Source of the DNA: Chloroflexota bacterium
GTDB taxonomy: Bacteria; Chloroflexota; Anaerolineae; DUEN01
Direction of reading: 5' to 3'
Assembly (NCBI GenBank): GCA_013152435.1
Contig: JAADGJ010000064.1
Location: 1-60,294 of the forward strand
DNA: 60,294 nucleotides
Of this stretch, positions 8,763 through 48,619 are shown one piece after another. The translations under genes and the position numbers were made by a program. A model generated the notes under the pieces. It made no database searches, was not told the origin of the DNA, and saw nothing but the letters and a program-made list of their open reading frames with translations. Every line of letters starts with the position of its first letter. Positions within the stretch are counted from its first letter, which is position 1.

Positions 8763-8796
8763 GATGCTCCCTCTCCAAAGGTCCTTTCCATGAGAA

Positions 8797-10098: not shown

Positions 10099-10124
10099 TG
10101 CCCCGGCAACACCCATGAGGGAGA

Positions 10125-10151
10125 TTGCCTCTGCTTCGCATGTGCTATAAT
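10125..10151 (+). promoter_or_regulatory. Promoter of the radical-SAM gene
   Basis: TTGCCT (10125-10130), a 15-base spacer and a consensus TATAAT (10146-10151) preceded by TGC, an extended -10. The start codon follows 65 bases downstream. Confidence 0.6.
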
Positions 10152-10216
10152 ACGCCCATCCGGCGGCGCCTGATCCATCGGCCCGCCATCCATCCCACAC
10201 CAAGGCACGATGGAAC

Positions 10217-11557: not shown

Positions 11558-11569
11558 ATCGCCCCTCCG
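11540..11569. repeat. REP-like hairpin 2, containing the maturase stop codon
   Basis: CGGAGGGGC (11540-11548) pairs with 11561-11569. The TGA of the radical-SAM gene (11555-11557) is in the loop. It shares CATGAATCGCCCC with palindrome 1 and may act as a transcript end between the convergent maturase and gpsA genes. Confidence 0.6.
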
Positions 11570-11573
11570 CTTC

Positions 11574-12659: not shown

Positions 12660-12673
12660 GATGTCCTCCTCGA

Positions 12674-13123
12674 TCAGCGCTCGTCCCAGCTCGGCACATC
12701 CTCATCCACACACCACAGGAACACGTAGCATCCCGTCCGCCCCAGGTGGCGGAACCGGCGGGTCAGGATGCGCTTGCGTTCCTCGTAGCTCAGGCCGTCC
12801 AGCGAGCGCAGGTAGTTGTAAAAGGAGCCATGTTTTGCGATCAGCTCCTGCATGATCCGGGCGTTCTCGATGGTGGCCATGATCTTCCGGCCGTTGCGCA
12901 CGATCCCCGGGTCGGCCAGGAGCCGATCCAGATCCCGCTCATCATAGGCGGCCACGCGATCCACGTCAAATCCATCGAACGCCCGGCGAAAGTTGGGCCA
13001 CTTGGCCCGGATCACATCCCAACTGAACCCGGCCTGGAAGATGGCCTTCGTCATCTGCTCCAGATAGCCCGCGTCGTCGGCCGGCCGCTTTCGCTCCGGG
13101 ATCTCAATGCTTCGTGGCACCAC
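12674..13123 (-). CDS. DNA-3-methyladenine glycosylase I (Tag)-like protein, probably altered active site
   Basis: 149 aa, HhH superfamily. Similar to Tag over FSWDVIRAKWPNFRRAF, FDVDRVAAYDERDLDRLL and GIVRNGRKIMATIENAR. The protein lacks the N-terminal part of Tag with its Zn-binding Cys and His, and the C-terminal ligands as well. At the place of the Tag residue Glu38 (in LEGQQAG) it has KAIFQAG, so the key acid is missing. True excision of 3-methyladenine is doubtful. GTG start preceded by GGGAGGTGAGG. Confidence 0.7.
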   Translation of the reverse strand: MVPRSIEIPERKRPADDAGYLEQMTKAIFQAGFSWDVIRAKWPNFRRAFDGFDVDRVAAYDERDLDRLLADPGIVRNGRKIMATIENARIMQELIAKHGSFYNYLRSLDGLSYEERKRILTRRFRHLGRTGCYVFLWCVDEDVPSWDER

Positions 13124-13252
13124 ACCTCACCTCCCGTTCCCGCCGAGCCTCTCTTTCGGCAAGCTGCCTCGTCGGCGGTCGTGTATCTTTTTCGGTGAAA
13201 ACAGGCGAGGGTCATATCTCGAGTCTTTACACCCACCCATACGCGCTCAAAG

Positions 13253-13291
13253 CGGACAACAGTCCGCCCTGTGTCGCCGGACTGTTGTCCG
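13253..13291. repeat. 14-bp perfect inverted repeat
   Basis: CGGACAACAGTCCG (13253-13266) pairs with 13278-13291 around 11 bases. It lies ten bases to the left of MITE-like copy B. Function unknown. Confidence 0.5.
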
Positions 13292-13301
13292 GCGGAAGCT
13301 T

Positions 13302-13560
13302 GGAGTGTGCCTGAAAAATGCCGTTGCTTCTGCTGCGGGGAGGCCCAGAGGGGCTCCAGCCCTCCGGAAAAAGCCCTTCTCCCGCCTTCGACCTGCCTGA
13401 CCTCGGCCTGGATCCTTCGGAAAGGGCCGAGAAAGGCAGGTACAGGCCGGAAAAGTGGGATTTCCGTGGAGGGGAGACCCCCTCCACACCTCCCCCGTAG
13501 AGCTGGTAGCTGAGGAAGACCCTCGGACACCTTGTCGGTAAATTTTCAGGCACGCCCTTA
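13302..13560 (+). mobile_element. MITE-like repeat, copy B
   Basis: About 259 bp. Terminal inverted repeats are well kept: left GTGTGCCTGAAAA, right TTTTCAGGCACGCCCTTA. The interior hairpin region is present (CTTCGGAAAGGGCCGAG). It is fused directly to copy C on its right. Confidence 0.75.
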
Positions 13561-13712
13561 GAAAATGCTGTTGCTTCTGCTGCGGGGAGGCCTGGAGGGG
13601 CTCCAGCCCTCCGGAAAAAGCCCTTCTCCCGCCTTCGACCTGCCTGGCCTCGGCCCGGGCCCTTCGGGAAGGGCCGAGAAAGGCAGATGCAGGCCGGAAA
13701 AGTGGGTTTCCC
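13555..13712 (+). mobile_element. MITE-like repeat, copy C, truncated
   Basis: Starts within or at the right end of copy B and follows the family sequence from TAGAAAATGCTGTTGC to GTGGGTTTCCCG, then stops matching near 13712. The right third and its terminal repeat are gone, so this copy should be immobile. Confidence 0.7.
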
Positions 13713-13766
13713 GCAAGTTGATGCGAATGGAACCTTGTTGGATACACCCCCTCGTCGACATGAAAG

Positions 13767-13790
13767 GGCCCCTGCCATAGGACAGGGGCC
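13767..13790 (-). terminator. Terminator of the ferredoxin gene
   Basis: GGCCCCTG (13767-13774) pairs with 13783-13790. Read on the minus strand it is followed by CTTTC, 24 bases after the ferredoxin stop. T-run short, so moderate strength. Confidence 0.5.
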
Positions 13791-13813
13791 TGGGGTCGAA
13801 GAGGACGAACAGA

Positions 13814-14089
13814 TCAGACCATATCCAGCGCTGCGTAACCCGGTCCTTCCGAGAAGAAGCGGGCATTGATCTCAGCAAAGTGCTGCATGTCCTCCGGCAA
13901 GTCCTCGATGGCCATGATGGCCCCGGTCTCGCACTCGGCCTCGCAGGCGCCGCAATCAATGCACGACTCCGGATCGATGTAGTACGTCGGCCACTCGTCC
14001 TCCGGCATCCCGGGGACGATCCCATCCACCGGACACACCTCGGCACAAGCTCCATCGCGAATGCAGGCATCGGTGATGACATGCGGCAT
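13814..14089 (-). CDS. 7Fe ferredoxin ([3Fe-4S][4Fe-4S])
   Basis: Small electron carrier of 91 aa. All seven cluster ligands of the Azotobacter FdI type are present: C9, C15 and C53 for the 3Fe-4S cluster, C19, C43, C46 and C49 for the 4Fe-4S cluster (CIRDGACAEVCP and CIDCGACEAEC). The non-ligand Cys after CPVD is Gly. The C-terminus (DLPEDMQHFAEINARFF) is that of the long-chain ferredoxins found in many Gram-positive bacteria and Chloroflexota. It stands alone with its own terminator. Redox partner unknown. Confidence 0.9.
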   Translation of the reverse strand: MPHVITDACIRDGACAEVCPVDGIVPGMPEDEWPTYYIDPESCIDCGACEAECETGAIMAIEDLPEDMQHFAEINARFFSEGPGYAALDMV

Positions 14090-14231
14090 GATCTACACTC
14101 CTTGGGTGGGATTGGTGGTCTTCACGGCACATTCTATCGATGCCTCCCCACGTGAGCTATGATCTAGCGCACCTTCCGGAGAGTTCCCATCCCCCACCCG
14201 AGGAATCCGAGAGACCTCGCCGCGCGGCCGA

Positions 14232-15905
14232 TCAGACCAACTCGATCGACACGGAGATCGGATCATCGCGCAAGGGCACGCTTAGGACGGCCACACCCTC
14301 GTCGAGCGGGGCCGCTCCGTCCTTGGCATAGGGATTAAAGGGCAGGACGGGCCAGGTGAACGTGCTCTCCGACGGCATGTGGAGCCGCCAGCCATGATGC
14401 GACACCCAACCGCCCGCGCGCTCAGCGCTCAGAGCCAGGCGCTCGCTACCCAGGACGAACTCCCCACCAGCGCCTGTCTGCAGCGCCTCCCCGGGGTGCA
14501 GTTTGAACAGCAACTGCCCGCGAGCACCTCCCGCAGGAGCGCCATGCAGGCGCACCTCGATGCGGTCCTGATCCACCACGCTCGCCTTCACGGAGCAGGG
14601 TCGGTCTGCGTACGTGAGCATCACAACGTCATCGGCATCCCCCGGATGCAGCGCGGCCGCGCTGGGCAGGTACACCGCATTCGATCCCTCGCCGATCACG
14701 AACGTGCTCCACTCCGGCTGCCCCTTGGAATTGCCTCCCCCCACGATGAGGCCGGTGCGCTCGTGCCAGACGCTGATGAAGTTCTGCCGATCCTGGCCCC
14801 AACGGTTGTCCACCGGCGGGGTGACGATGCCGCTCAGACAGTAGAACCATCCACGCGAGCGCCGGATGATCGCATGCCCTTCGTCGTGGATATGATACTC
14901 AGGACGATCCTGTGGGATCGGCTCCTCCGGGCCCACACGATAATGGGCATAGGCGGATGCGAGTCGGGGGCTGAGGCCGTAGTCGACGTTCACGATCCGC
15001 TTGCCACCCGGGGTCACCACGTAAGACACATGTGGCCCCGGCTGCTCCTCTCTCCGCCGCAGCATGTTCTCCACCAGAAGGCGCACATACCGCCGGCCAC
15101 GAGGGAAGAGGCGGAAGGCCACTTGAGCGGTATCCGGGATCCGGTCGTGGTACTTGACCCGTCCATCGATGGTCTCAACGGCGCGGCCGTCAGGATAGGT
15201 ATAGCGGATATGGAACTCCGTCGCCCGCTCCAGACAGGGGAGGACGCCCTCATCGCCGGAGAAGATGTGGTACAGGCCAATGGCGTGCACATATACGAAG
15301 TTGTACGTGGTGGTGGGGCCGTGATGCTCACGCCAATATCCCTGGGGCGTCTGCTCCTGCACCGCCCTGTAGATCACCTCCCGCCCCTGGTCCTGCCACG
15401 CAGGCCGCTCAAAGACCTGCCCGGCCCGGTAAAGCGCCATGCCATTCCAGGTGGGTATGTTGTGTACGGCGGCCTTCTCCAGCTCGCCGGCGATGCCCGT
15501 ATAGGCGAGGATCAGGCCATCCTCCCAACGAGCGCGCCGCTGCGGGTCCAGGAGATTCTGCAGCAGGGCATACGTCTCCAGCCAGTGATACATGGACCAG
15601 GGCATATATGTGGGGCCCCACTTCGACCCATCCACCTTGACGAACTCCACCCGGCCGTCGGGGTATTGAAAGTCACGCCAGGCGTCCGCACCCCGAAGGA
15701 CATAGCGCAAGATGCGCTCATCGCGATAATAGGGGTTCCCTATGTCATCGGTGAGATAGAGCAAGGCCAGGGGATAGACGATGTCCTGGTTGGTCACAGC
15801 CCAGCCGCCATCGGTCAAAAAGCGGCCGGTACGCTCATCAAAACGCTCCAGATTCCGCTCGACGTCCCGCGTCAGGATACGGAGGTACGCCCGCCGCACG
15901 TCCAT
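14232..15905 (-). CDS. Putative alpha/alpha-toroid glycan lyase-like protein
   Basis: 557 aa with no signal peptide, so cytoplasmic. The N-terminal 350 residues are rich in Trp, Tyr and His within helix-like repeats (WGPTYMPWSMYHWLETYALL, HHGPTTTYNFVYVHAIGLYH), as in the (alpha/alpha) toroids of heparinase II/III and other polysaccharide lyases or unsaturated-oligosaccharide hydrolases. The C-terminal 200 residues look like a beta-sandwich (EYHIHDEGHAIIRRSRGWFY onwards), again as in heparinase-type lyases. I cannot name the family or catalytic residues with certainty. A good AAGGAGG site precedes the ATG. The upstream Opp-type importer suggests intracellular processing of imported oligosaccharides. 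Confidence 0.55.
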   Translation of the reverse strand: MDVRRAYLRILTRDVERNLERFDERTGRFLTDGGWAVTNQDIVYPLALLYLTDDIGNPYYRDERILRYVLRGADAWRDFQYPDGRVEFVKVDGSKWGPTYMPWSMYHWLETYALLQNLLDPQRRARWEDGLILAYTGIAGELEKAAVHNIPTWNGMALYRAGQVFERPAWQDQGREVIYRAVQEQTPQGYWREHHGPTTTYNFVYVHAIGLYHIFSGDEGVLPCLERATEFHIRYTYPDGRAVETIDGRVKYHDRIPDTAQVAFRLFPRGRRYVRLLVENMLRRREEQPGPHVSYVVTPGGKRIVNVDYGLSPRLASAYAHYRVGPEEPIPQDRPEYHIHDEGHAIIRRSRGWFYCLSGIVTPPVDNRWGQDRQNFISVWHERTGLIVGGGNSKGQPEWSTFVIGEGSNAVYLPSAAALHPGDADDVVMLTYADRPCSVKASVVDQDRIEVRLHGAPAGGARGQLLFKLHPGEALQTGAGGEFVLGSERLALSAERAGGWVSHHGWRLHMPSESTFTWPVLPFNPYAKDGAAPLDEGVAVLSVPLRDDPISVSIELV

Positions 15906-15939
15906 GAGGTCGCCTCCTTTTCACATCTCACCGGGCACA

Positions 15940-15970
15940 AAAAACAACCCGGAGTCCCAAAGCCTCCGGG
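15940..15970 (-). terminator. Rho-independent terminator after the Opp operon
   Basis: CCCGGAG (15948-15954) pairs with 15964-15970; on the minus strand the hairpin is followed by TTGTTTTTTG. It lies just after the small membrane protein gene and before the lyase-like gene. Confidence 0.75.
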
Positions 15971-15993
15971 CAGGGGCCGAACCCCTCTCCGCA

Positions 15994-16338
15994 CTACAGT
16001 GTCAGCACGTGAACCCCCCACGCCACGGCCAGGATGGCCAACTCGATCAGAGTCACGCGCAGGAATCGCCTGGCCAGCACACCCTTTGCGGCGCCGGTAC
16101 GATAGTAGGACTCCATATACAGGATCCCTACCAGCCAGATCAGGCCGAAAAACACGAACAACCACTTGTCCGCAGCGCCATAGCCCCACTTGCCGAGGCG
16201 CAACATCACGTACAATCGCAGGATGGCCTCTCGGGCGCCGATGAGGTCGGCTATCCCCAGGGCGCCAGTGATCCCCCACGCCAGATAGATCGCCGCGTAT
16301 CGCGCTGCCGTTCGAATCGTCGTCGCCCTCCATATCAC
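15994..16338 (-). CDS. Small membrane protein of unknown function
   Basis: A 114-aa protein with three hydrophobic segments (about residues 14-32, 57-76 and 93-112), for example WLFVFFGLIWLVGILYMESY. The GTG at 16338 comes one base after the stop of the OppF-like ATPase gene (TAG-C-GTG), which argues for coupled translation and decides the start; no better site exists. A terminator follows. Family not recognised; it may be an accessory of the importer. Confidence 0.65.
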   Translation of the reverse strand: MIWRATTIRTAARYAAIYLAWGITGALGIADLIGAREAILRLYVMLRLGKWGYGAADKWLFVFFGLIWLVGILYMESYYRTGAAKGVLARRFLRVTLIELAILAVAWGVHVLTL

Positions 16339-16339
16339 G

Positions 16340-17368
16340 CTAGTCGACGCCCCGCAGGGACAGCTGATCGGCGAGGTGGCAGGAGACGAAATGATCGGGC
16401 GAGATCTCCCGCAGAGGCGGCTCCTCCACCGAGCACACCTCCTGCGCGTACCGACAGCGGGGGTGGAAGTAACAGCCGTCGGGAGGGTTGGAGGGATCAG
16501 GCACATCGCCGGTGAGGATGATCCGCTCCCCCTTCGCCATGGGGTCTGGACGACGCACGGCGGAGAGCAACGCCTCCGTATATGGATGCTTGGGGCTGAA
16601 GAACAACTCCTCCGTCTCCGCCGTCTCCACCAGCTTGCCCACATACATGACGGCCACGTGGTCGCTCACATGCTCCACCACGCTCAGGTCATGGGCGATG
16701 AAGATGTAGGACAGGTGAAGCTGCTCCTGGAGGTCCTGCAGCAAGTTGAGCGTCTGCGCCTGAATGGACACATCCAGGGCCGACACCGGCTCATCCGCCA
16801 CGATCAGCCGCGGGTTGAGAGCGAGCGCCCGGGCGATCCCGATCCGCTGCCGCTGGCCGCCGCTGAAGGCGTGCGGATACCGGCGCATATACTCGGGGCG
16901 AAGGCCCACCAGGCGCAGCAACTCCGCCACCCGGTCTTCCACCTCCTTGCCTCGCGCCACATTGTTGACGATCAGGGGCTCGCCCACGATGTCAAGCAAG
17001 GTCATACGGGGGTTCAGGGAGGAATAGGGATCCTGGAAGATCATCTGCATGTTGCGGCGCAGGTAGCGAAGCTGCTCCGGATCCGCCTGCACCACATCCA
17101 CCGGGCCCAACCGCTCATCATGAAAGATGATCTCCCCGCTCGTCGGCTGGACCGCCCGCAAAATGCACCGCCCCGTCGTCGTCTTCCCACACCCGCTCTC
17201 CCCTACCAGGCCCAGGGTCTGGCCCTCCGGCACCATGAACGTCACCCCGTCCACGGCCTTCACGTAACCGACGACGCGGCGCAGAAAGCCGCGCACGATC
17301 GGGAAATGCTTCTTCAGATTCCGAACCTCCAGGATGGGCCTGTGGTTTCTCTCCCCAGACTCAGCCAT
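16340..17368 (-). CDS. ABC transporter ATP-binding protein, OppF-like
   Basis: 342 aa, one of two ATPases of a peptide/oligosaccharide importer. Walker [10 protein letters not shown] at 56-64, signature [14 protein letters not shown], Walker [14 protein letters not shown]-loop FIAHDLSVV. The C-terminus has the Opp/Dpp-type zinc or cluster motif with Cys residues ([14 protein letters not shown]). ATG at 17368 after GGAGGGGG; an upstream start at 17488 would overlap the OppD-like gene. Confidence 0.92.
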
Positions 17369-17376
17369 TCCCCCTC

Positions 17377-18402
17377 CTAATACAGGAAACACTTCACCAG
17401 ATGCCCATCCCCCACGTCCACCATCGGAGGGTCCTCCACGTCGCAGACGCCGGGCATGAAACGGCGGCATCGGGTGTGAAAGGCGCATCCGGCCGGGATG
17501 TTGTACGGGTCCGGCACCATCCCCTCGATCGTATCCAGCCGGGTCCTCCGCTTGCGTCCCAGCTTGGGAATGGAGCGCAGGAGAGCCTGCGTATAAGGAT
17601 GCTTCGGATCGTAGAAGAGCGAGTAGACATCCGCCCGCTCCATGAGCTTGCCCAGGTACATCACGATGACCTCTTGCGCCATCTCCGCGATCACCCCCAG
17701 GTCATGGGTGATGTACAGGATGGCCATGCCCATCTCCCGCTGCAGCGTCTGCATCAGGTCCAGGATCTGGGCCTCGGTCGTCACATCCAGAGCCGTGGTG
17801 GGCTCGTCGGCGATGAGCAGGCTGGGCTGACAGACGAGCGCCCGGGCGATCATGGCCCGCTGGCGCATGCCCCCCGAAAGCTCCCACGAATACCGCCTCA
17901 GGACGTCCTCCGCTCGCGGCAGCCCACAGCGGGATAACATGTCAATGGCGATCTCTTTTGCCTGTTCTTTCGTCACGTCCCGATGAAGGAGGATGCTCTC
18001 CATGATCTGATTGCCGATGGTATGCACGGGTGAGAAGGAGGTCATCGGCTCCTGGAAGATCAAAGCGATCTCAGCGCCTCGAATGGAGCGGATCTTCCTG
18101 CCACGCGGGTCAAGCTGGGTCAGATCCACCACCACATCCACCTCGCTACCGCCATTGCGCCTCACGCGCCGGTGGAACAGGATCTGCCCCTCGACGATGC
18201 GGCCGGGAGGTGGCACGATGCGCAGGATCGACTGGCCGGTCACGCTCTTGCCGCAGCCGCTCTCCCCGACGACCCCCAGGGTCTGACCATGCTGGATGTC
18301 GAAGGTCACCCCATCCACGGCGCGTACCGTCCCCTCATCGAGGAAGAAATAGGTCTTGAGGTCCTTCACCTCCAACAGGAGGTCCTTGCCGCCATCAGCC
18401 AT
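17377..18402 (-). CDS. ABC transporter ATP-binding protein, OppD-like
   Basis: 341 aa. Walker [10 protein letters not shown] at 46-54, signature [16 protein letters not shown], Walker [14 protein letters not shown]-loop [12 protein letters not shown]. The C-terminal Cys motif is [16 protein letters not shown] segment after Walker A ([17 protein letters not shown]) is longer than in E. coli OppD. Eight bases separate it from the OppF-like gene. It pairs with that protein to form the heterodimeric motor. Confidence 0.92.
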
Positions 18403-18407
18403 CTTCT

Positions 18408-19604
18408 CTACCTCGCGTACGGATCAGCGGCATCACGGAGGCCATCCCCCATGAAGTTGAAGGCGAGAATGGCGACCACCACGAAGAGGGCCGGGATGAG
18501 AAGCCACGGCGCCAGGGCCACGGTCTGCAGATTCTGCGCTTCCTGCAACAGAACCCCCCAGCTGATCGTCGGCGGCCGCAAGCCCAGGCCGAGAAAGGAG
18601 AGGCTGGTCTCGCCCAGGATCATGCCCGGGATGGCGAGCGTGAGCGAAGCGATGATGTAGCTCAGGAAGGAGGGCAGCATGTGCCGCACGATGATGCGAA
18701 ATTCGCTGGCGTTCACGATCCTCGCCGCCGTGATGAAGTCCTCCTCCCGTACGGCCAGGAAGCGCCCGCGCACCACGCGGGCCAGTCCCGTCCAACCGAT
18801 GAGCGAAAGGAGCACGACGATCGCGAAGTAGCGCTGCACGGACGACCACTCGCGGGGTAGGGAGGCGCTCAACGCCATCCACAGCGGGATGGTGGGGATC
18901 GACCGCAGGAATTCGATCACCCGCTGAATGATGATGTCCGGCATCCCTCCCCAATAGCCCGAGATCCCCCCCATCAGGATGCCGATGATGAAGCTGAGGA
19001 ACACGCCGATCAGGCCGATGGAGAGGGAGATGCGCGCCCCGTAGAGGATCCTGGAAAACATGTCCCGCCCCAGCCGATCCGTGCCCAACAGGTGGATCCG
19101 CATGTCCTTCACATCCGGCCCCAGGCCGAACAGATGCACGTCGGTCTCAAAGAGTCCCCACATCTTGTACGGGTCACCGCGCACGAAGAAGTAGATCGGG
19201 TATATCCGCTCCGGATCGCTCTCGTAACGGATCACGTACGTCTCGGGATCCCGAGTGCGCTCAAGCCCGTACACGAACGGACGTAGGCGGAATTTGCCCT
19301 CATGGACGAAGTGGATTCGCTGAGGGGGCACGAACGTGAACCGCCTCGCGTAATCGTTCGGATCATACGGGGAGAGAAACTCGCAAAAGATGGCGAGGAG
19401 GTAGAAGATCAGGATCACGACCGTGCCCACGTTGGCCAGCTTATGCTTGCGGAAACGCCACCACATAAGCTGCCACTGGGAGGCGACGAATATCCTCTCC
19501 TCTTCCTCCACCCGTGGTCCGACCGGGGAGATCGGCTCTTTTTTCAATACCTCGCTGACTGCAGGTGGCATCTTCGTCGACAGCTCCTTATCTGGACTCG
19601 ACAT
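18408..19604 (-). CDS. ABC transporter permease, OppC/DppC-like, with periplasmic insertion
   Basis: 398 aa, about 100 longer than E. coli OppC. After the first membrane segment (VGTVVILIFYLLAIFCEFLS) and the usual LSPYDPND comes an insertion of about 80-90 residues before LLGTDRLGRDMFSRILYG, probably facing outward. The remaining membrane segments and the EAA loop (IVRHMLPSFLSYIIASLTLA) are normal. The first 17 bases overlap the OppB-like gene. The insertion may dock the large binding protein. Confidence 0.9.
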   Translation of the reverse strand: MSSPDKELSTKMPPAVSEVLKKEPISPVGPRVEEEERIFVASQWQLMWWRFRKHKLANVGTVVILIFYLLAIFCEFLSPYDPNDYARRFTFVPPQRIHFVHEGKFRLRPFVYGLERTRDPETYVIRYESDPERIYPIYFFVRGDPYKMWGLFETDVHLFGLGPDVKDMRIHLLGTDRLGRDMFSRILYGARISLSIGLIGVFLSFIIGILMGGISGYWGGMPDIIIQRVIEFLRSIPTIPLWMALSASLPREWSSVQRYFAIVVLLSLIGWTGLARVVRGRFLAVREEDFITAARIVNASEFRIIVRHMLPSFLSYIIASLTLAIPGMILGETSLSFLGLGLRPPTISWGVLLQEAQNLQTVALAPWLLIPALFVVVAILAFNFMGDGLRDAADPYAR

Positions 19605-37036: not shown

Positions 37037-40000
37037 ATGACGTCAGCTTACTCTCGCGTGTGGGTCGCGGCGCTTCTGGCTTTGGCCATCCTGTTGCCGG
37101 GCGTGCACGTGTCCGCCCAGCCGGCCGCGCAGACGGCCGATCCTTATGCCCCGATCGATGTGGTGCTTCTCATCGATGACTCGGGCAGCATGAGCGATTG
37201 GTGGGCCGATGGGCGGCGCCCTCCGAACGATCCTGAGGGGCTGCGTCACAGCGCCGCCCGGCTGTTCGTCGATCTGGCCCGCCCGGGAGATCGCATCGCG
37301 GTCATCTCGTTCCACACGACGCCGACCGGCTACGGGGCGGCCGCGGAGGGTGGATTCGACGTCATCTCCGACCAGGCTTCCCGAGATCGGCTGAAGGCCG
37401 CGATCGTGCAGCCCACGGAGCCTGAAGATCCCATGGAGCGGCTGACCGATATGCGGCTCGCCCTGCGCATGGCCCAGGACATCCTGCGACGGAACCAGTC
37501 GGGCAATCGTCAGTTTATCGTCTTCCTGACGGATGGTCGCCCCTATCCCACCGAGCAGCGACCGGAGTTGTTCCAGGTCATCTCCGAGCTGGGCCAGGCC
37601 CACGTGCCCATCTTCCCCATCCTGCTGGGTAAGGACGCCGACCCCAAGGTGGCGGAGCGGATGGCCCTGGATACCCAGAGCGTGGTGCAGGAGATCGATA
37701 GCCCGTCCGATCTGCTGCGCGCGTATGCCACGATTTATTCGTATATCCAGCCGAATCGATACGTGGACATCCTGGACCTGGTCGGCGGCCAGATTGGGAC
37801 CGTGAAGACCAGCGAGGAACAGGGGGTAACGGAGCTCAACATCGTCCTGCCCAAGGCGCGGGATGCCGCCGCCGCGTTCGCCGATCTCACCCATGACGGC
37901 ACATCGATCCTCGGCCTGGATCGCCTCGATAACGGGGCGACGATCAGCCGGGTCACCGATCAGCATTACGAGATGGTCACCATCTCCCACAACAGCCCGC
38001 TCACGGGCGAATGGATCGCGCACGCCCTGCAGGCCGTCGGGGCCAGCGGGCTGGTCGTCGCCGAGTCCGTCACCACCATCAATCTGGTCTATCCGCATCC
38101 GGCTCCGGGGGCGGACTCCACCGCCACGCCGCGCTACTATCCGGTGGGGAAGCCGATCTTCCTGGGCGCCACCGTGCAGAGTGGAGGTGCCCTGATGACC
38201 GATCTCCCGCTCTTCGCCCGCGTGGAAGGGGTGCAGTACCCGATGTCCACCGAGGGGCTGATGAAGGATGGATCGCTGTACTGGGCGATCGTGCCCGCGC
38301 AGCCGGGCATCCAACCTGGGCAGCGGACCCGGATCCAGATTCAGATCGGCGATCAGGTGACCCCGCTGCGGTTGCGGAAGGAGTTCGTCCTGGAGGCGGG
38401 CGAGTTCCCGCCCTTGATCGCGGACAGCCCCACCGAGCGCTCGGACGGGATCCTGGAGGAGGGCAAGCTGCATCTGCGTGTCCATTTCGAGGGATCGCCG
38501 CCGCCCACGGAGGCCCGGGTGGAGGCCTTCATCCAGGACACGAACACGGGGGACGTCGCCCGCATCCTCCTCGCCTGCTCGGAGGGGGTGTGCGAGGATA
38601 AGAGCTTCACGCCGACTCAAGGGCGACATTACCAGGTGCTGTTCCTCGCCACCGCTACGACAGCGGACGGGGTGGTGTACAACGATTTCGCCGAGGGCAG
38701 CCTGACCATGCGCGATGCGTTGCGCCTGGAGTCATTGCCCTCGATCCTGGATCTGGGGCGTGTGCCTCTCTATCAGGACTCCGTGGAGCGGGAGTTGACG
38801 TTCTCCGCCTATACGGAGCAGCCCTTCCAGCTGAAGGCCAGCGTGGAGTTGCAATCGGCCACATCGGGCATGCGGCCGGGCCAGTTGACGGTCAGCCTGG
38901 CCCGTCCCACCCATGAGGGGGGAAACCGCTACAAGACGCTGCTCACGCTCAGCGGCTTCGATCAGCTGGCCCCGGGACAGTACACGGGCACCATCACCTT
39001 CCATGCCGGGGGCGATCTGGATGTGCAGCCGTCCAGCGTGCCGCTCAAGTTCAGCATCCCGGAGCCGGAGATCCGGCTGACGATGCCCGGCTCCGTCGAT
39101 CTGGGCGAGATCCAGCGGCCGCGTGAGCCGCGTGAGTTCAAGATCAAGGCGGAGTTCACCGAGGGCACAGTCTCGGAGCTGGAGGGGGTGTTGGCCAATC
39201 TGACCCGGGATGGGCAGCCCGTAGATGCCGATCACTTCACCGTGCTGGTCGGACAGCCCGTTCCGCAGGGGGATGACAGCCACATCTACACGATCCCGGT
39301 GCGGCTCTCCGCCATCGCCCGGCCGCCGGCCGGCGTCTATCGCGGCGAGATCGTCTTCTCGTCGCCGTCCGGGCTCTCCATTGAGCCGCGCCAAGTGCAA
39401 GTCGTCTTCAACGTCCCGCAGCCGGAGGTGATCCTGACCCTCAGCGGCGATGTGCTGGACTTCGGCGACGTGGCCGATCTCACGCGGCCGACCAGCGTGC
39501 CGGTTTACATGGAGCTGCGGTACATCGACAGCCCGCCTCGGATCGAGGCAACCCTGTCCGACGTGCGGCATTCCGGCGGCAGCGTGCAGGCGGCCAGCGC
39601 CCTGACCGTCCGGACGGGCGTGATCCAGCAGGACGGCGAGGGCTATCGCGTGCCGCTGCTCCTGAGCGCCGAGGGGAAGGTACCCCCCGGCCTGTATCAG
39701 GGCACGATCGTCTTGCAGGCCGGCGAGGGGGTTGCCGTCCGGCCGTCCAAGATCAGCTTCACTGTGCGCCAGCTGACCACCTTGCAGGCGTTGGGGCGTC
39801 GGCTGGCCCCCATTGGGACGTTCCTGCGCACCTGGTTCTGGCCGCTGCCGCCGATCCGGCTCACCGGGTTCGTGGGCTGGCTGGTGTTGTTGGTGCTCAT
39901 CAACACCGGGCTGCGGCTGCGCCCTGCGGCGCCCCGGGAGGGCGGCGTGGTCATCGCCGACGCCACCGGGGAGACGGTCACCGTCCCGCGCAATCGCCCG

Positions 40001-40309
40001 CTGTATCTGGTGATGGGGCGGGATGGCGTGGGCTTCAGCACCAAGCAGGCGGATCGGACGCGGGCTCTGGCGATCGTGGACCTGGAGCAACGGGTGACCG
40101 GGCAGTCCACGAGAGCGAATTGGCGGGCCGTGCTACGCGCGAACCCAACCGCCCCCACTCAGGTTCGCGTGGCCTATTGGCGCCCGGAGACCGGGCGTTG
40201 GCGCCTGGTCGGTGAGCAGGGGCGTGTGCTGAATCCCGGCACCCGCTTCCGCATCCGGCTGGTCGAGAGCGGCGATAAGTTCTATTTCCGTTACATGGAT
40301 GAGGGATGA
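37037..40309 (+). CDS. Large VWA-domain surface protein with C-terminal membrane anchor
   Basis: 1090 aa. Signal peptide 1-27 (VWVAALLALAILLPGVHVSA). VWA domain about 38-225 with a full MIDAS start D47-x-S49-x-S51 (LLIDDSGSMS). A long extracellular part follows, including three tandem beta-sandwich-like repeats of about 120 residues, each opening with DLGRV, DLGEI or DFGDV and closing with a G-x-Y-x-G-x-I strand (PGQYTGTITF, AGVYRGEIVF, PGLYQGTIVL). A membrane segment is at about 942-965 (FVGWLVLLVLINTGLRL), then a cytoplasmic tail of about 125 residues. Fifteen bases separate it from the tubulin-like gene. The architecture suggests an external sensor or adhesin linked to an internal partner. 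Confidence 0.8.
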   Translation: MTSAYSRVWVAALLALAILLPGVHVSAQPAAQTADPYAPIDVVLLIDDSGSMSDWWADGRRPPNDPEGLRHSAARLFVDLARPGDRIAVISFHTTPTGYGAAAEGGFDVISDQASRDRLKAAIVQPTEPEDPMERLTDMRLALRMAQDILRRNQSGNRQFIVFLTDGRPYPTEQRPELFQVISELGQAHVPIFPILLGKDADPKVAERMALDTQSVVQEIDSPSDLLRAYATIYSYIQPNRYVDILDLVGGQIGTVKTSEEQGVTELNIVLPKARDAAAAFADLTHDGTSILGLDRLDNGATISRVTDQHYEMVTISHNSPLTGEWIAHALQAVGASGLVVAESVTTINLVYPHPAPGADSTATPRYYPVGKPIFLGATVQSGGALMTDLPLFARVEGVQYPMSTEGLMKDGSLYWAIVPAQPGIQPGQRTRIQIQIGDQVTPLRLRKEFVLEAGEFPPLIADSPTERSDGILEEGKLHLRVHFEGSPPPTEARVEAFIQDTNTGDVARILLACSEGVCEDKSFTPTQGRHYQVLFLATATTADGVVYNDFAEGSLTMRDALRLESLPSILDLGRVPLYQDSVERELTFSAYTEQPFQLKASVELQSATSGMRPGQLTVSLARPTHEGGNRYKTLLTLSGFDQLAPGQYTGTITFHAGGDLDVQPSSVPLKFSIPEPEIRLTMPGSVDLGEIQRPREPREFKIKAEFTEGTVSELEGVLANLTRDGQPVDADHFTVLVGQPVPQGDDSHIYTIPVRLSAIARPPAGVYRGEIVFSSPSGLSIEPRQVQVVFNVPQPEVILTLSGDVLDFGDVADLTRPTSVPVYMELRYIDSPPRIEATLSDVRHSGGSVQAASALTVRTGVIQQDGEGYRVPLLLSAEGKVPPGLYQGTIVLQAGEGVAVRPSKISFTVRQLTTLQALGRRLAPIGTFLRTWFWPLPPIRLTGFVGWLVLLVLINTGLRLRPAAPREGGVVIADATGETVTVPRNRPLYLVMGRDGVGFSTKQADRTRALAIVDLEQRVTGQSTRANWRAVLRANPTAPTQVRVAYWRPETGRWRLVGEQGRVLNPGTRFRIRLVESGDKFYFRYMDEG

Positions 40310-40324
40310 GTAGGGGAGTGTCCT

Positions 40325-42922
40325 ATGGCAGGACTTATGCGCATTTCATCAAACGGTGATCGATCCTCCAAACCCACGCTTCGCCCCACGTTGGTGCTGG
40401 GGTTAGGGGGCACGGGCGTCGACGTGTTGCGCTTCTTCAAGCGACGCCTGCGTGAGGCGTGGGGGCTCGGGCCGGCGGAGGAGATCCCGGGCATCATCCA
40501 GCTTTTGGGCGTCGATACCATGCCCTGGGCGAATCTGCCCGGCCAGGAGTACCTCCATCGCCACGAGTACGCCTATATCGGCGGTTACAATGCCACTCAG
40601 GTCCTGCGTCATCTGGACAACCATCCCGCCATCAAGGCGTGGTGGAACTGGCCGCCGGAGATGGTGCCGCTGGGGCAGATCCACAGCGGCGCCCGGCAGA
40701 TCCGCTGCGTCGGGCGGCTATCCTTCTTCCGCCGCTATCGCACCTTCTGGAGCCATCTGGAGCCCAAGCTGAGCCGCATGGCCGCCGTGGCCACCATCGA
40801 GGAGACGGAGAACCGGGGCTATCCGGTCATCCGGGAGGGCGGGATTCGCCACATCTACATCGTGACCTCCCTCTGCGGCGGCACCGGAAGCGGCATCTTC
40901 CTGGACGTCGCCCACAAGATCCGTCACCTGTTCGGCGAGCAGGCCATCATCACGGGCATCCTGGGCATGCCGTCGATCTTCATTGAGGAACTGGACAGCG
41001 ATTTGCAGAAGCGTCGGATCCAGGCCAACGCCTACGCCGCCTTGAAGGAGCTGGACGCCTTCCAGAGTGGCCACGACTTCACCGTCCAGTATCCCGGCGA
41101 GGACCCGATCACGGTCAGCCGCCCCTTCGATCGCATCTACCTGATTGAGCGGCGGAACATCGCGGGTGAGGTCCTGGACACCCTGGACGACGTCAAGCAG
41201 ATGATGGCCCACCAGATCTTCCTGGAGACGGTCTCCCACATCGGGTCTCGGATCTGGTCCTACGATGTGAACATCTCCCAGGAGCGCCACCGTGACGGGA
41301 CCAGCATGTTGGCCTACAGCTCCTTCGCCACCTCCGCTCTGGTGGTGCCCAAGGAGCGCATGTTGGAGTATTGCGCGCTGAAGTACGCGGAGCGCTTGCT
41401 GGACCTCGGCCTGCTGCGGGAGTTGGAGCCCGAGGACAAGAATGCCCTGATGGCCGAAGCCCAGTCCGTGATCACCTTCGTGCAGGATACGATCATGGGG
41501 CGCAAGCAGCGGCCGGCCACCACGACCGCCCCCGCGGCGTCCGATGTGGAGGAGGAGGTCTTCGAGGAGGAGGACGACTTCGAGTCCTTTGAGGAGGAGG
41601 AAGAGGAAGAGGAGGAGTGGGAGCACGAGGGGCGGCCGGCGCCGACGCTGTGGAATGAGGCCGCCTACGATCGGCTGCTGCAGGACCTGCGTGACCTGCT
41701 GCACCAGATCGTCCGGCACTACGGGCTGCGAGGGGTTCATTTCTTCGTGGACACGCTGCATCAGTCGCTGGTGGCCCAGCGTGAGCAGGCGCGTGAGGAC
41801 GAGGACAACCTGACCCGCCGTATCGAGGCCCTGGAGGTGAACCTGGCCCGGGTGCGTGATCCCTTCATCGTCAACCTCCTCAACTTCTGGCCCTTTGACA
41901 TGCTCTTCGTGGACAACCTCAAGCGGGCGACCCGCCGGGAGCGCGCCGTGCTGGGCGAGCAGATGACGCGCCTCACCCGGGCTCGCAGCCGGGTGCAGGC
42001 GATGCACGGCGTGTGGGATCAGCTCATCCCCGTCCTGGAGGAGCTGCGCTGGGAGGTCGAGAATCGGATCGGCGATGTGGAGGCCGCGCGGGAGAAAGGG
42101 ATCGTCGAGCCCCTAGGGCTCTTCTTCCGGCTGGGCGGCCGCGCCACGTGGGAGAACGCGTACGCGTTGACCAGCGAGGCCGTGGACGATCGCTACATCG
42201 CCAACGAGTTCGAGCGGCGCAACTGGGATCGCGTCCTGCGCCATCGCCTCAGCGATTCGCTGAATCACCTGGCGGAGGATCCGGTCCTCTTCCGGGTGGA
42301 GGTGGAGATCAGCGAGCAGCGGATGTTCGGGGAGACGGTGTATGCCAAGTCGCTCAAGCTGCTCTCGCACCTGCCCGACAATGAGGATCAGCCGCTGACC
42401 TGGTTTGATATCCGCGATCGGCTTCTGCGCCACAGCCGCTACGAGGTGGTGGACGTATCGATCCAGGATGAGGAGTTCCACTTCGCCCGCATCCTGGCCA
42501 CGAATCGATCACTGCTCCAGGAGCGGGTCAAACAGCTATTCGCTCGTTGTCATCCCTTCTGGCGTTACGATCTGGATCGCGGCGGGCTGGATGAGCAGGA
42601 TCTGGAGCACACTATCCTGGTGGGCGTGGATGACGCCATCCGTCACATGAAGCTGTATGACGATCTGCTCCGGGATTACAGCGAGTACGAGCGCGTATCT
42701 ACCGGCGATCCCCTCCGTATCGAGGCGTGTAAGATCAGCCACGGCCTGCCGATCATGTACGTCGAGAACATCGAGACGTTGCAGCGCCACTACCAGGAGT
42801 TCATCACACGCAGCCCGGTCCATCTCCAGATGGACTGGCAGAACCTGCCCGAGATCGTCTTGGCCGATGCCGTGACCCATCCGGCGCGCGAGGCTTCTGG
42901 GCGCCGTTCGAGGCTGGCGTAG
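40325..42922 (+). CDS. Tubulin-like GTPase domain protein (Tubulin_2-like)
   Basis: 865 aa, no membrane segment. N-terminal third resembles the tubulin/FtsZ-like family known in Pfam as Tubulin_2: a first glycine loop VLGLGGTGVDVLRFF (24-38) and the GTP-binding signature SLCGGTGSG (182-190). An acidic stretch of Glu/Asp lies at about 408-435. The C-terminal half is largely helical with predicted coiled coil (about 490-520 and 540-590). It is in the middle of a three-gene operon between a VWA surface protein and a membrane protein with a similar glycine loop. Polymerisation and GTP use are inferred from family only. Confidence 0.75.
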   Translation: MAGLMRISSNGDRSSKPTLRPTLVLGLGGTGVDVLRFFKRRLREAWGLGPAEEIPGIIQLLGVDTMPWANLPGQEYLHRHEYAYIGGYNATQVLRHLDNHPAIKAWWNWPPEMVPLGQIHSGARQIRCVGRLSFFRRYRTFWSHLEPKLSRMAAVATIEETENRGYPVIREGGIRHIYIVTSLCGGTGSGIFLDVAHKIRHLFGEQAIITGILGMPSIFIEELDSDLQKRRIQANAYAALKELDAFQSGHDFTVQYPGEDPITVSRPFDRIYLIERRNIAGEVLDTLDDVKQMMAHQIFLETVSHIGSRIWSYDVNISQERHRDGTSMLAYSSFATSALVVPKERMLEYCALKYAERLLDLGLLRELEPEDKNALMAEAQSVITFVQDTIMGRKQRPATTTAPAASDVEEEVFEEEDDFESFEEEEEEEEEWEHEGRPAPTLWNEAAYDRLLQDLRDLLHQIVRHYGLRGVHFFVDTLHQSLVAQREQAREDEDNLTRRIEALEVNLARVRDPFIVNLLNFWPFDMLFVDNLKRATRRERAVLGEQMTRLTRARSRVQAMHGVWDQLIPVLEELRWEVENRIGDVEAAREKGIVEPLGLFFRLGGRATWENAYALTSEAVDDRYIANEFERRNWDRVLRHRLSDSLNHLAEDPVLFRVEVEISEQRMFGETVYAKSLKLLSHLPDNEDQPLTWFDIRDRLLRHSRYEVVDVSIQDEEFHFARILATNRSLLQERVKQLFARCHPFWRYDLDRGGLDEQDLEHTILVGVDDAIRHMKLYDDLLRDYSEYERVSTGDPLRIEACKISHGLPIMYVENIETLQRHYQEFITRSPVHLQMDWQNLPEIVLADAVTHPAREASGRRSRLA

Positions 42923-42939
42923 GTCAAGGGGGAGAGACC

Positions 42940-45900
42940 ATGGGGGCGGCTGGAAGCAACCGGGCAGCGCTCATCGGCCTGGGGGGATGGGGATGTCGCG
43001 TGTTGGCGCATCTCTGGCCTCGTTTGCGCCAGGCGGACGAGCGTCGGGCGCTGGTGACATCGAATCTCACCCCGATCCACTACACGGTGAGCTTCGCCCT
43101 CGTGATGCCGGATGATGACCATCAGCTTACCATCGCCCGGCCTCGCCCGGGCCGTTGGGATACCCCCGAGTTCTCCGAGACGCCCTGGCACGCCCTGTCC
43201 GACCTCTCGCGCGGCGGTCAGCGGCATAGCCGCGCCTGGCGTGAGGAGACGTATCGGCGGCTTCAGGACGCCATTGATGTGTTGGAGGCGCACCTTCCGC
43301 CGGAGGGGAACGCCGGCGTCGGCCGGATGGCCATGCTCCGCACCCTGATCGCCCACGAGTCGGCCATCGCCCAGCAGCTGGTCTGGATCATGGACCAGGC
43401 GCGTATCGATCGGGGTGAGCCCACGGCCGAGATCGCCAAGCTCACGATCTACATCCTGGCCTCGTTGGCTGAGGACATCGCCTCCGTGCTGATCTGGCCG
43501 CTGGCGGCGATGATCCGTCAGGCGGTGGGCACCTATACCCCCATCGAGGTGGTCGGGCTCCTCCAGGCGGACTCCTTCGCCTCGTCACCGGAGCGCTTCT
43601 ATGAGTTGGCCGGCGTGCACTTGGCCCTGCACGAGATGGCCGTCCTGGAATCCTCCGACCCTGAACAGCAGGATGCGGTGCGGGCGTCCCTGCCGCGCGG
43701 TCAATGGCTGGAGGCGTTGGGGACGCACCCTCTGGATTATCGATATCTGATCAGCCGTGAGAAGATCGGGGGCACCACGGCCGAGGGCGAGGGCGAGATC
43801 ATCACCATGATCGGGAATGCCCTGGAGGCCTTCCTGCTCTCCGATGTCGATCGCTGCCTCAGCGAGCGGTTGGCGCCGGATCTGCCTGCGCTGCACGAGC
43901 GGAACGGTTATAGCAGCCTGGGTGCCGCCTCCGTCTACGTGCCGGTGGACCAGATGCGCGCCCGCAGCCGGGATCAGGTGCGCCTGCGGGTATTACGCGA
44001 TCACTTCCTGACCCCTCTGGTGCCCGAGCAGGCGCGGCAGGTGGAGGAGCTGGCCCATACCCTGGGGCGTGACCTGCTCTCCGTTGTGCGGCTGGAGCAG
44101 GCTTTGATCGGCAGCGGCCCCATTGAGCTGGATAAGGACACGTGGCATCCGCTTTCCGATGACGTGGGGCCCTTCGTGCCCGTGCGCCTGCGAGAGAGTG
44201 AGTTGCAGCCGCCCCTCAGCGGAACGGAGGGGCTGGGCCCCGTCGCCCGGTTGGAGTTCATCCAGCAGCACTTCGATCAGCTGGAGGGGGCTCGCCTGCC
44301 ACGTTGGCGGCAGGAGCTCCTGGTGCGAGCCGGGGTGATCCCAACGCCGGACGCCGAGGATCTGGCGGACGCCCGGGAGGAACCCGAGCAGCCGTCGGAG
44401 GCCCAGGCGGATGCGTCGGAATCCTTCGCTGAGGCGCCGTCTCCCGGACAGACGGCGGTCCACCATCTGCTGGATCAGGTGGATCGCTTCCTGCTGGGGC
44501 TTGTGCGAGAGGGAGGGCGTGGTGGGCTGCGCATGGCGATCCACTGTGCGGAGCGGGTCGCCGAGCTGGTCCAACAGGACAGCGTGGGGCTTTCGGCGCA
44601 GCGCAGTCAGATGGCTATCCCGCCCGCGCTGCGCAACCTGAGCACCTCGACCGAGGTCAACCGATTGACCCGCCTGATGGAGAGCTGGAGTCAGGTTCAG
44701 AGCCACCCGGGGTGGGTCTTCCTGATCTCGTTGGTCCTCAGCCTGGTGGCGGGCACGGCCGCCGCGCGGGCCAACGGCATGGGGCCCGGAGAGCTGCAGG
44801 CGGCGGGCCTGGTGTGGCTGGTTGTCAGCGCCGTGGTCTTGGGCGTGATCGTGGGGGCCAGCGTCCTGGTGTTGGCTCGGAATCAGCTGGATCGGCTGAC
44901 GAATCGGCTCATGCGGGCCAAGGCCGCCGTTATCAACCGCCAGCTGAACGACCTGGTATATGAGCTGACCGTGAACGCGCACGCCGCCTTGCACGAGCAG
45001 ATCCTGGCGCGCGTGGGCTATCTACAACGTACACTGGCCGAGTTGGAACGGGAGCAGGCGCAACTGGCCGCCGCGCTCGCCCGCCCGATGACGGCGGAGT
45101 CCTCCTTCGTGCGCTCAGCCATCCTCGATAGCGCCATCTACGATGGCATCTGGGCCAGGGCGCAGCGCTGGATCAGCGGCGATATCGCCCCGCGGCTGTG
45201 GACCAACGGCAACGGGCCGCCCGACGAACTGCTGGCTGCCTGGCGGGATACGCTGGAGGGAGTGGCCGCCGAGCCCACGCTGGCGCAGCTGGGCCAGCGG
45301 CCGGCGTTGAGTTATACGGACGAGACGGGGGCTCGAACACCGCTCGCGGAGGCGATCTCGGGGGCGGTGGCTCGCTACGCGGCCATGGTCTCTCAGCCCT
45401 ATCTGCCCCCAGGTGCCAGTGTGGAGTCTTCCCTGATGCGCTTGGCAGGGCCGCATGATGGTGAGGGGAAGCACGTCGACGCTGGATGGCAGCTGGATGA
45501 CCTTTGCGTCCGGGCCCGCCCCTTCATCGGGCTGGAGGAGACGGAGCATGACATCGGTGCGGTGGTGAGCATCGATCTGGCTGCCGTGCCGTATACCATG
45601 AGCCAGTGGCTCGGCCGGGAGACGGGGGCCGCGCTGCACGTGCATCCCGTTCCCTCCTCGGACCCCTTCTCCATCATTGTGGTGCGCACGTTGCATGGCC
45701 TGTTGCGGGATCACCTGCCTCAACTGCGGCGTTATGCGACGGCCTTCCAGGGGCTCAACGCCGAGGAACGCAGCCGGTTGATCGTCAGCCCCATCCTGGC
45801 GGGCGAGCCCCCCGCGCCGGAAGATGAGGGACAAGAGGTCCTGGTAGATGAGGAAGTCGAGCCCGCACCGGCCGGCGAGGGGGAACCCTCCCCTGAAGGG

Positions 45901-46074
45901 GATGCGACGGATGGGGAGGACTCCTCGGAGATGGACCAGGCGGCCGACGAGGCTGAGCCTGTGATGACGGATGAGGAGCCCACCTCCGCGGAGGCCAGCG
46001 AGGAGGAACCCACGGAGCCAGGCCGGGCGGCGAGCGAAGCCGAGCCGGAGCCCACCTCCTCCTCGCACGCGTGA
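42940..46074 (+). CDS. Large membrane protein with diverged tubulin-like N-terminus
   Basis: 1044 aa. It opens with AALIGLGGWGCRVLAHLW (9-26), a glycine loop like that of the upstream tubulin-like protein, but I find no second GGTGSG signature, so GTP binding is doubtful. Two membrane segments at about 588-612 and 621-647 (WVFLISLVLSLVAGTAA; GLVWLVVSAVVLGVIVGASV) are close together, with both large parts probably in the cytoplasm. A helical stretch (660-720) follows, and the last 90 residues are very rich in Glu, Pro and Ser. Seventeen bases after the tubulin-like gene. Likely the membrane receptor of the system; exact role unknown. Confidence 0.65.
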   Translation: MGAAGSNRAALIGLGGWGCRVLAHLWPRLRQADERRALVTSNLTPIHYTVSFALVMPDDDHQLTIARPRPGRWDTPEFSETPWHALSDLSRGGQRHSRAWREETYRRLQDAIDVLEAHLPPEGNAGVGRMAMLRTLIAHESAIAQQLVWIMDQARIDRGEPTAEIAKLTIYILASLAEDIASVLIWPLAAMIRQAVGTYTPIEVVGLLQADSFASSPERFYELAGVHLALHEMAVLESSDPEQQDAVRASLPRGQWLEALGTHPLDYRYLISREKIGGTTAEGEGEIITMIGNALEAFLLSDVDRCLSERLAPDLPALHERNGYSSLGAASVYVPVDQMRARSRDQVRLRVLRDHFLTPLVPEQARQVEELAHTLGRDLLSVVRLEQALIGSGPIELDKDTWHPLSDDVGPFVPVRLRESELQPPLSGTEGLGPVARLEFIQQHFDQLEGARLPRWRQELLVRAGVIPTPDAEDLADAREEPEQPSEAQADASESFAEAPSPGQTAVHHLLDQVDRFLLGLVREGGRGGLRMAIHCAERVAELVQQDSVGLSAQRSQMAIPPALRNLSTSTEVNRLTRLMESWSQVQSHPGWVFLISLVLSLVAGTAAARANGMGPGELQAAGLVWLVVSAVVLGVIVGASVLVLARNQLDRLTNRLMRAKAAVINRQLNDLVYELTVNAHAALHEQILARVGYLQRTLAELEREQAQLAAALARPMTAESSFVRSAILDSAIYDGIWARAQRWISGDIAPRLWTNGNGPPDELLAAWRDTLEGVAAEPTLAQLGQRPALSYTDETGARTPLAEAISGAVARYAAMVSQPYLPPGASVESSLMRLAGPHDGEGKHVDAGWQLDDLCVRARPFIGLEETEHDIGAVVSIDLAAVPYTMSQWLGRETGAALHVHPVPSSDPFSIIVVRTLHGLLRDHLPQLRRYATAFQGLNAEERSRLIVSPILAGEPPAPEDEGQEVLVDEEVEPAPAGEGEPSPEGDATDGEDSSEMDQAADEAEPVMTDEEPTSAEASEEEPTEPGRAASEAEPEPTSSSHA

Positions 46075-47761: not shown

Positions 47762-48619
47762 ATGGCGATGATTGAACTGGCTCCCCATCACAAGATGGGC
47801 CTGGCGCTGCGATCCCCGTTGATCCTGGCCGTGGGGATGATCGGCTATGGGGATGCGGTCCCGCGTGCGCTGGATCTGGGCTGCTGTGGGGCCTGGGTGA
47901 CCGGGCCCATTGGGCTGAGATCGCGCGGGGGGGTCCCTCCGCCGCGCTTGGCCGAGGTGCGCGGCGGCGTCCCTCCGCCGCGCTTGGCCGAGGTGCGCGG
48001 CGGCGTCGTGCTGGCGGAGACGGGGCAGAACCCGGGCGTGGATCAGGTGATCCGCCGCCACAGCGCCGCATGGGAGCGGTGGGAGGTTCCCGTCATCGCC
48101 CGGCTCTGGGGCGCTCCGGAGGAGCAGGCAGCCGTTGCGCAGCGGCTAGAGGGGGCGGGAGGTGTGGCCGCGTTGGAGCTGGCACCGGATGATCGCCTGG
48201 GTCCTGAGGCCGCCGCCGATCTGGTGGAGGCCGTGCGCGGGGCCTGCGAGATCCCTCTGCTGGCCGTCCTGCCCTTGGCTTCCAACGTGGTCGATTGGGC
48301 CGTCGCCTGTGTCGAGGCCGGCGCGGATGCCCTGGTCGTGGGGAGGGCGCCGCGAGCGTTGGGGATCGCCCGGGATGCGCAGCCGGTGCGCGGCCGACTG
48401 TACGGCCCGGCGGTGGCCGCGTTATCCATGGCCGCGCTGGAGGCGGTCGCCCTGGCCGATCTGGGAGTGCCCCTGGTCGGCTCAGGGGGCGTTCACCACG
48501 TGAGCGATGTGCACGCTTTCCTGCGGTTGGGCGCGATGGCCGTTCAGATCGACACGGCCGTCTGGGTGGATCCGACCCTGTTGGAGCGGATCGGCAAAGC
48601 TTTGGAGGACATTGGGTGA
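47762..48619 (+). CDS. PyrD-like dihydroorotate dehydrogenase-family protein, diverged, with internal duplication
   Basis: 285 aa TIM-barrel FMN-type protein. It follows the class 1 pattern: SPLILAVGMIGYG at the start, GPIGLRSRGG, then PPRLAE and TGQNPGVD. The usual K-[LV]-[ST]-PN segment reads AVLPLASN, losing the lysine. A 36-base unit encoding VPPPRLAEVRGG is present twice in perfect tandem (residues 58-69 and 70-81), so the loop is 12 residues longer than in relatives. Phosphate-binding GSGGVHHVSD is kept. Activity on dihydroorotate is doubtful. Confidence 0.7.
   Translation: MAMIELAPHHKMGLALRSPLILAVGMIGYGDAVPRALDLGCCGAWVTGPIGLRSRGGVPPPRLAEVRGGVPPPRLAEVRGGVVLAETGQNPGVDQVIRRHSAAWERWEVPVIARLWGAPEEQAAVAQRLEGAGGVAALELAPDDRLGPEAAADLVEAVRGACEIPLLAVLPLASNVVDWAVACVEAGADALVVGRAPRALGIARDAQPVRGRLYGPAVAALSMAALEAVALADLGVPLVGSGGVHHVSDVHAFLRLGAMAVQIDTAVWVDPTLLERIGKALEDIG
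47933..48004 (+). repeat. Perfect 36-bp tandem duplication within the pyrD-like gene
   Basis: Unit 47933-47968 is repeated exactly at 47969-48004 (begins GTCCCTCCGCCGCGCTTGG). It keeps the frame. Absence of any difference implies a recent event or ongoing homogenisation. Confidence 0.9.

Follow-up and report, generated by a model that had tools for sequence, protein, structure and literature searches.

A conserved Chloroflexota locus pairing an exported VWA protein with two tubulin-like proteins: a candidate transmembrane sensor-scaffold

The window analysed here is a 60,294-nucleotide stretch of DNA from a Chloroflexota bacterium (GCA_013152435.1, contig JAADGJ010000064.1), and its locus at 37037-46074 on the + strand holds three genes in tandem that encode an exported VWA protein (gene 1), a soluble tubulin-fold protein (gene 2, TUB) and a tubulin paralogue that is predicted to sit in the membrane and lacks the T4 loop (gene 3, TUBM). 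We favour, at roughly even chances, a reading in which this triad is a sensor-scaffold module of FtsZl1 (Tubulin_2) type that spans the membrane: a tubulin-type scaffold, anchored in the membrane, is coupled to a VWA sensor outside. It is preferred because genes 2 and 3 both match Tubulin_2, differ consistently in their GTP loops (T4 is kept in 42 of 42 gene 2 homologues and missing from 33 of 33 for gene 3) and have models with CetZ/tubulin folds; because the two are homologous and gene 3 proteins form a single clade; because co-location is strict, eight fusions join the parts in relatives, a PW motif ends 32 of 33 VWA tails in one family and the genome keeps a separate canonical FtsZ; and because the operon of one relative (L054) adds PP2C, Ser/Thr kinase and FHA proteins and carries FHA on the VWA tail itself.

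Operons of VWA and FtsZl1 genes were described in 2010, with a proposed role in membrane remodelling (Makarova and Koonin, PMC2875224). The architecture that a first-pass annotation of the letters had put forward is supported, but the system is less novel than that annotation implied. What appears new is the T4-less membrane partner, together with VWA-Tubulin_2 fusions. A literature search, made without supplementary files and most subscription journals, turned up no earlier account of a Tubulin_2 partner that lacks T4 and is set into the membrane, so the novelty of this partner is provisional.

Products of the three genes

The open reading frames have 1090, 865 and 1044 codons and are separated by 15 and 17 bases, as first reported. 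Their features are as follows.

37037..40309, +, gene 1, exported VWA protein of 1090 amino acids (longest reading frame from 36938; Pfam, homologue alignment)
37157..37678, +, VWA domain (PF00092, residues 74-247; PF13519)
37175-37189, +, metal ion-dependent adhesion site (MIDAS) motif DxSxS, here DDSGS
39845..39901, +, membrane segment of gene 1 (hydropathy; residues 970-988 of the long frame; position conserved in homologues)
39902..40306, +, predicted cytoplasmic tail of about 135 amino acids, with no Pfam match
40325..42922, +, gene 2, soluble Tubulin_2/FtsZl1 protein of 865 amino acids (PF13809, model, structural matches)
40400..40417, +, T1 loop GLGGTG
40877..40894, +, T4 GTP loop GGTGSG
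41429..42274, +, long coiled-coil insert between the tubulin domains (modelled as helices 369-650)
42296..42865, +, C-terminal tubulin-type domain of gene 2 (strands 658-808; CetZ1 residues 1-367 match model residues 20-828)
42940..46074, +, gene 3, membrane-inserted T4-less tubulin paralogue of 1044 amino acids (PF13809, hhalign, model)
43462..43485, +, degenerate T4 site, with SLAEDIAS where the glycine loop would be
44707..44874, +, predicted membrane hairpin, segments about 590-611 and 627-645 (hydropathy; modelled as continuous helices)
45565..45780, +, C-terminal tubulin-type domain of gene 3 (strands 876-921; match range to residue 941-956)

Gene 2 scores 214-218 bits against PF13809 (Tubulin_2), for which the cut-off is 27. 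Its score against PF00091 is 22 bits, below the cut-off of 33, and the canonical FtsZ of the genome lies elsewhere, on contig C81 (PF00091, 179 bits); gene 2 is not the genome's division FtsZ. The two tubulin-type glycine loops noted in the first-pass annotation proved invariant in 42 of 42 homologues, at G26, G28, G29 and G31 of T1 and at all four glycines of T4. D64 and N316 are likewise invariant in these homologues and the stretch N235-E242 nearly so. The AlphaFold2 model (mean predicted local distance difference test, pLDDT, 80) has CetZ and tubulins as its top structural matches, with Z of 22-26; most alignments cover about 300-340 residues at 3.7-3.9 A, and the fold that the first-pass annotation expected is thus predicted. 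These matches range over residues 19-847 and pass around the coiled coil, so the C-terminal part of the model also looks tubulin-type and the coiled coil looks like an insert between the two domains. Searches by sequence for relatives of solved structure gave none that was convincing, the best matches being coiled coils. By analogy with characterised relatives, gene 2 probably forms GTP-dependent filaments.

Gene 3 had been taken for an anchor with two membrane segments and a first loop resembling that of gene 2. The loop (GLGGWG) and the segments (at about 591 and 627) were both recovered and anchoring is plausible, but in its actual nature the protein is a tubulin paralogue that has lost T4 and carries a membrane hairpin. 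It belongs to the Tubulin_2 family in its own right, beyond what had been claimed for it, with 31.6 bits against PF13809 (cut-off 27), and 15 of 33 homologues match Tubulin_2 independently at E 0.01. Aligned by hhalign to the gene 2 family, it matches over the whole GTPase domain (probability 99.6, E 7e-25). The T4 loop is kept in 0 of 33 homologues and, since an intact loop is missing throughout, gene 3 is classed as a degenerate paralogue. Its model (pLDDT 78.5) aligns to CetZ1 with Z 20.5 over 294 of 330 residues, in the range 7-941, and places the hairpin inside the coiled-coil insert. Foldseek on the same model reached CetZ2 with E 0.006 at best, and for that reason the fold call draws on the second aligner and the sequence profile. 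The FtsZl1 plan of an FtsZ-like domain, a coiled coil and a C-terminal domain is present in the models of both genes. All 38 gene 3 proteins form one clade (support 0.735) in a tree built from N-terminal domains, which is consistent with one old duplication, long-branch attraction being the caveat.

Two Tubulin_2 proteins in other loci (L154, 7612-11244; L155, 3509-7672) keep the T4 loop, have hydrophobic segments in the insert and adjoin a VWA gene, which suggests that a hairpin can arise without T4 loss.

The longest frame of gene 1 opens at 36938, and the start at 37037 is favoured because homologues align from residue 34 of that frame. Pfam (PF13519 at 35 bits and PF00092 at 33, both above cut-off), the DDSGS motif and hydropathy agree with the earlier description of an exported protein with a complete MIDAS, a membrane segment and a cytoplasmic tail. 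The N-terminus is a signal segment, and the succession of signal, VWA domain, late membrane segment and tail is the plan of most gene 1 homologues. Together with the positive residues that follow the membrane segment, this would place the VWA domain on the outer side of the cytoplasmic membrane, held by a single-pass anchor, and the tail inside. The tails of Caldilineaceae VWA proteins vary in length, and 32 of 33 terminate with a [DSN]PW motif that looks like a docking site. An FHA domain in the tail of the window protein, an idea taken from relative L054, was supported by neither hhalign nor Pfam.

Conservation of gene order

A locus scan yielded 80 loci, chiefly from Caldilineaceae and other Chloroflexota. 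Among the Chloroflexota loci, gene 3 directly follows gene 2 in 37 of the 40 that could be tested (a gap or small open reading frame intervenes in 3), and the VWA gene lies immediately 5' of gene 2 in 40 of 42 (farther upstream in 2). A class sample of 298 genomes holds Tubulin_2 in 64, and all 31 genomes with a gene 3 profile match are among those 64. Wherever that match is strong (25 of 25 genomes), it shares contig and strand with gene 2 and comes directly after it, the two match starts being 2.5-2.8 kb apart. The window's own family has one copy in 4 of 4 genomes, and gene 3-like proteins were recognised in further Chloroflexota families. The co-occurrence on which the first-pass annotation depended is thus borne out by conserved order in both the loci and the class sample, and conservation over species rules out a chance arrangement. 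No other neighbour of the triad is widely shared.

Third genes from Clostridia and Methylorubrum (both with two membrane segments) and from Meiothermus were considered as gene 3 homologues and rejected, as their profile matches were not significant. In Meiothermus (L122, L124) a VWA-type gene and gene 2 are followed by a third gene without a membrane segment, unmatched in Pfam (L122) and weakly alignable to gene 3. An Acidobacteria bin (L125) gives a weak gene 3 match, at the right place only.

Fusions and operon variants

Eight related genomes (L061, L151, L152, L161-L165) encode VWA, membrane segments and Tubulin_2 in a single chain of about 1800-2360 amino acids. All eight were read from frames free of N; Pfam confirmed 3 of the 8, and the Pfam-checked cases also have a PD40 propeller. 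Separate VWA and gene 2-type genes adjoin the fusion gene in most cases. Counting membrane segments in the fusions with a signal and three spans, the VWA part would lie outside and the tubulin part inside. These chains are the most direct evidence that the outside and inside parts cooperate. A giant two-tubulin fusion of 3513 amino acids in L061 was rejected, because its frame crosses a stretch of N that marks an assembly gap; within it, 12730-18840 is free of gaps and represents a genuine VWA-membrane-Tubulin_2 fusion. The L164 and L165 fusions have two VWA domains, the second apparently cytoplasmic and ahead of the tubulin domain.

Relative L054 (G283:C41:46000-65000) has, at 258-14010, an operon in which a PP2C phosphatase, a Ser/Thr kinase and two FHA proteins accompany the VWA protein, gene 2 and gene 3; the tail of this VWA protein is an FHA domain. 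This operon is a phospho-signalling version of the triad. In L055 (G238) and L108 the triad is followed 3' by a protein of 128 amino acids, another of 393-397 and a longer gene, which is HerA/DUF87-like in L108 and similarly placed in L055. Close to the triad, 27 Caldilineaceae loci have a DsbA-like thioredoxin gene (in L076, for instance, at 3249-4802), which may be mere synteny.

Proposed function and alternatives

How would the parts work together? On the sensor-scaffold reading, the exported VWA protein would sense or bind an outside ligand, and its tail would dock on a cytoplasmic tubulin complex, coupling ligand binding outside to assembly inside. Gene 2 would supply GTP-dependent assembly, while gene 3, pinned to the membrane by its hairpin, would anchor the tubulin-type assembly, probably acting as a nucleotide-free seed or end-cap, fixed in place, that brings the gene 2 protein to the membrane. 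Adhesion, envelope shaping and surface movement are the candidate processes. Coupling between outside and inside, which the first-pass annotation had proposed, is supported by the natural VWA-membrane-Tubulin_2 fusions and by the conserved C-terminal motif (32 of 33 tails).

Chloroflexota are generally held to have a single membrane. In such a host the exported VWA domain would face the outside directly, which would weaken the periplasm objection of a reviewer in PMC2875224, who asked how a cytoplasmic FtsZ-like protein could act with exported VWA proteins.

Several points weigh against this reading. The window clade has a conserved, apparently folded tail of a different type, without the PW motif, and the fusions come from a related but different branch, where most keep a GG-rich loop; their tubulin part is therefore not simply gene 3 joined to gene 1. 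The T7 catalytic residue of gene 2, at a position assigned by eye, is partly conserved (N316 in 42 of 42, E320 in 28 of 42). Polymerisation of gene 2 is assumed, and the coiled-coil insert might hinder assembly. Membrane topology is predicted from hydropathy, and the literature search found no experiments on any family member.

Could the triad be a full tubulin-based outside-in receptor? In this bolder form, which we consider possible but tentative, the nucleotide-free membrane gene 3 would seed a GTP-driven gene 2 filament under VWA control, with receptor and tubulin joined in one polypeptide in some lineages.

A different view, rather unlikely in our judgement, is that the two tubulins together bend the cytoplasmic membrane or constrict it, in remodelling or vesicle formation, with the VWA protein as an assembly partner and not a receptor. 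Remodelling is the published proposal for VWA-FtsZl1 operons (PMC2875224), and the gene 3 hairpin would tie filaments to the membrane. However, no conserved neighbour with a known membrane-remodelling role was found, and the large external domains and the VWA-Tubulin_2 fusions indicate an outside ligand.

Many Chloroflexota are multicellular filaments, a habit that would suit a signalling or conflict complex, in which VWA and tubulin proteins would make a thresholded assembly for defence or self/non-self response. Such a complex would resemble the GAP1-N2 systems of multicellular bacteria, which hold tubulin-coiled-coil and extracellular VWA proteins (PMC7159879), and the kinase, PP2C and FHA proteins of the L054 operon fit it as well. 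Yet neither GAP1-N2 nor GAP1-M occurs in the window genome or in 11 of 12 further genomes tested, PADLOC gave no match and the window operon has no effector domain, all of which makes this quite unlikely. A transport or secretion scaffold, in which the tubulin pair organises an export machine with the VWA protein as its outer part, was suggested by a reviewer in PMC2875224 and can draw on the HerA-like ATPase gene of L108, its counterpart in L055 and the DsbA-like gene of the 27 Caldilineaceae loci, but it is improbable given that such neighbours are absent beside the window triad and in most lineages and that the operon has no channel protein.

Surroundings of the locus

Upstream of the triad are two divergent metallo-beta-lactamase-fold genes, and about 160 bases 3' of it come Crp-type regulator and dihydroorotate dehydrogenase-like genes; none of these flanking genes looks like part of the triad. 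The single upstream promoter of the first-pass annotation was not found: no triad-directed promoter was seen upstream on the + strand, and the sole strong upstream site, a sigma-70-like TTGACA-17-TATACT at 36686-36658 (11/12 match), is on the minus strand and faces the two hydrolase genes. Kinase, P-loop GTPase and OmpA-like genes, frequent but not required in FtsZl1 operons, are missing beside the window triad. The scanned neighbours include no AAA+ protein (MoxR), and the locus does not qualify as a MoxR-VWA ternary conflict system. Pfam and the neighbour scan found no effector domain in the operon, and phage and defence libraries gave no matches. The dihydroorotate dehydrogenase-like gene contains a 36-base tandem repeat at 47923-48007 (2.4 copies, 95% match).

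Comparison with known systems

The closest known system is FtsZl1 (PMC2875224): gene 2 is a member, an adjoining VWA gene has an intact MIDAS, and a coiled coil follows the FtsZ-like domain. The window locus differs in that both tubulin domains are seen in the model, whereas the C-terminal domain of FtsZl1 could not be related to tubulin in the 2010 paper; in its fixed third gene, a T4-less membrane-inserted tubulin paralogue that is not in the text of that paper; and in having neither an OmpA-like nor a distinct GTPase gene adjoining the triad.

GAP1-N2 GTPase-centric systems (Kaur et al. 2020, PMC7159879) also include tubulin-coiled-coil and VWA genes, with coiled-coil tubulin-domain proteins, two of them in Firmicutes, beside membrane VWA proteins. 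Their GAP1, zinc-ribbon GTPase and FNIII proteins, however, do not stand beside the window triad. PF20013 and PF20014 (GAP1) are absent from the window genome and, because GAP1 is missing in 12 of the 13 genomes tested, the triad is not classed as a GAP1-N2 system.

Archaeal tubulin-like CetZ is the top structural match of the models (Z 24-26 for gene 2, 19-21 for gene 3), but its sequence identity with the two is just 12-15%. No coiled-coil insert, membrane hairpin or VWA partner is known for CetZ.

FtsZl1/Tubulin_2 proteins have been known since 2010, but they have lacked a function and a subunit model and the reviewer's question has gone unanswered; the triad offers candidate answers in a single-pass VWA anchor with a docking tail, a membrane-set tubulin subunit and fusions that bridge both sides. 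Even if the coupling proved wrong, a tubulin set into the membrane and lacking T4 would stand out as unusual in the superfamily. If the coupling is true, this would be a tubulin-based bacterial counterpart of an integrin-like linkage. The likeness to integrins is a functional analogy only (a MIDAS VWA domain outside, a short tail inside and a proposed link to the cytoskeleton), with homology claimed no further than the VWA domain and a tubulin-type in place of an actin-type partner. The triad is a testable candidate for a bacterial link between surface and cytoskeleton.

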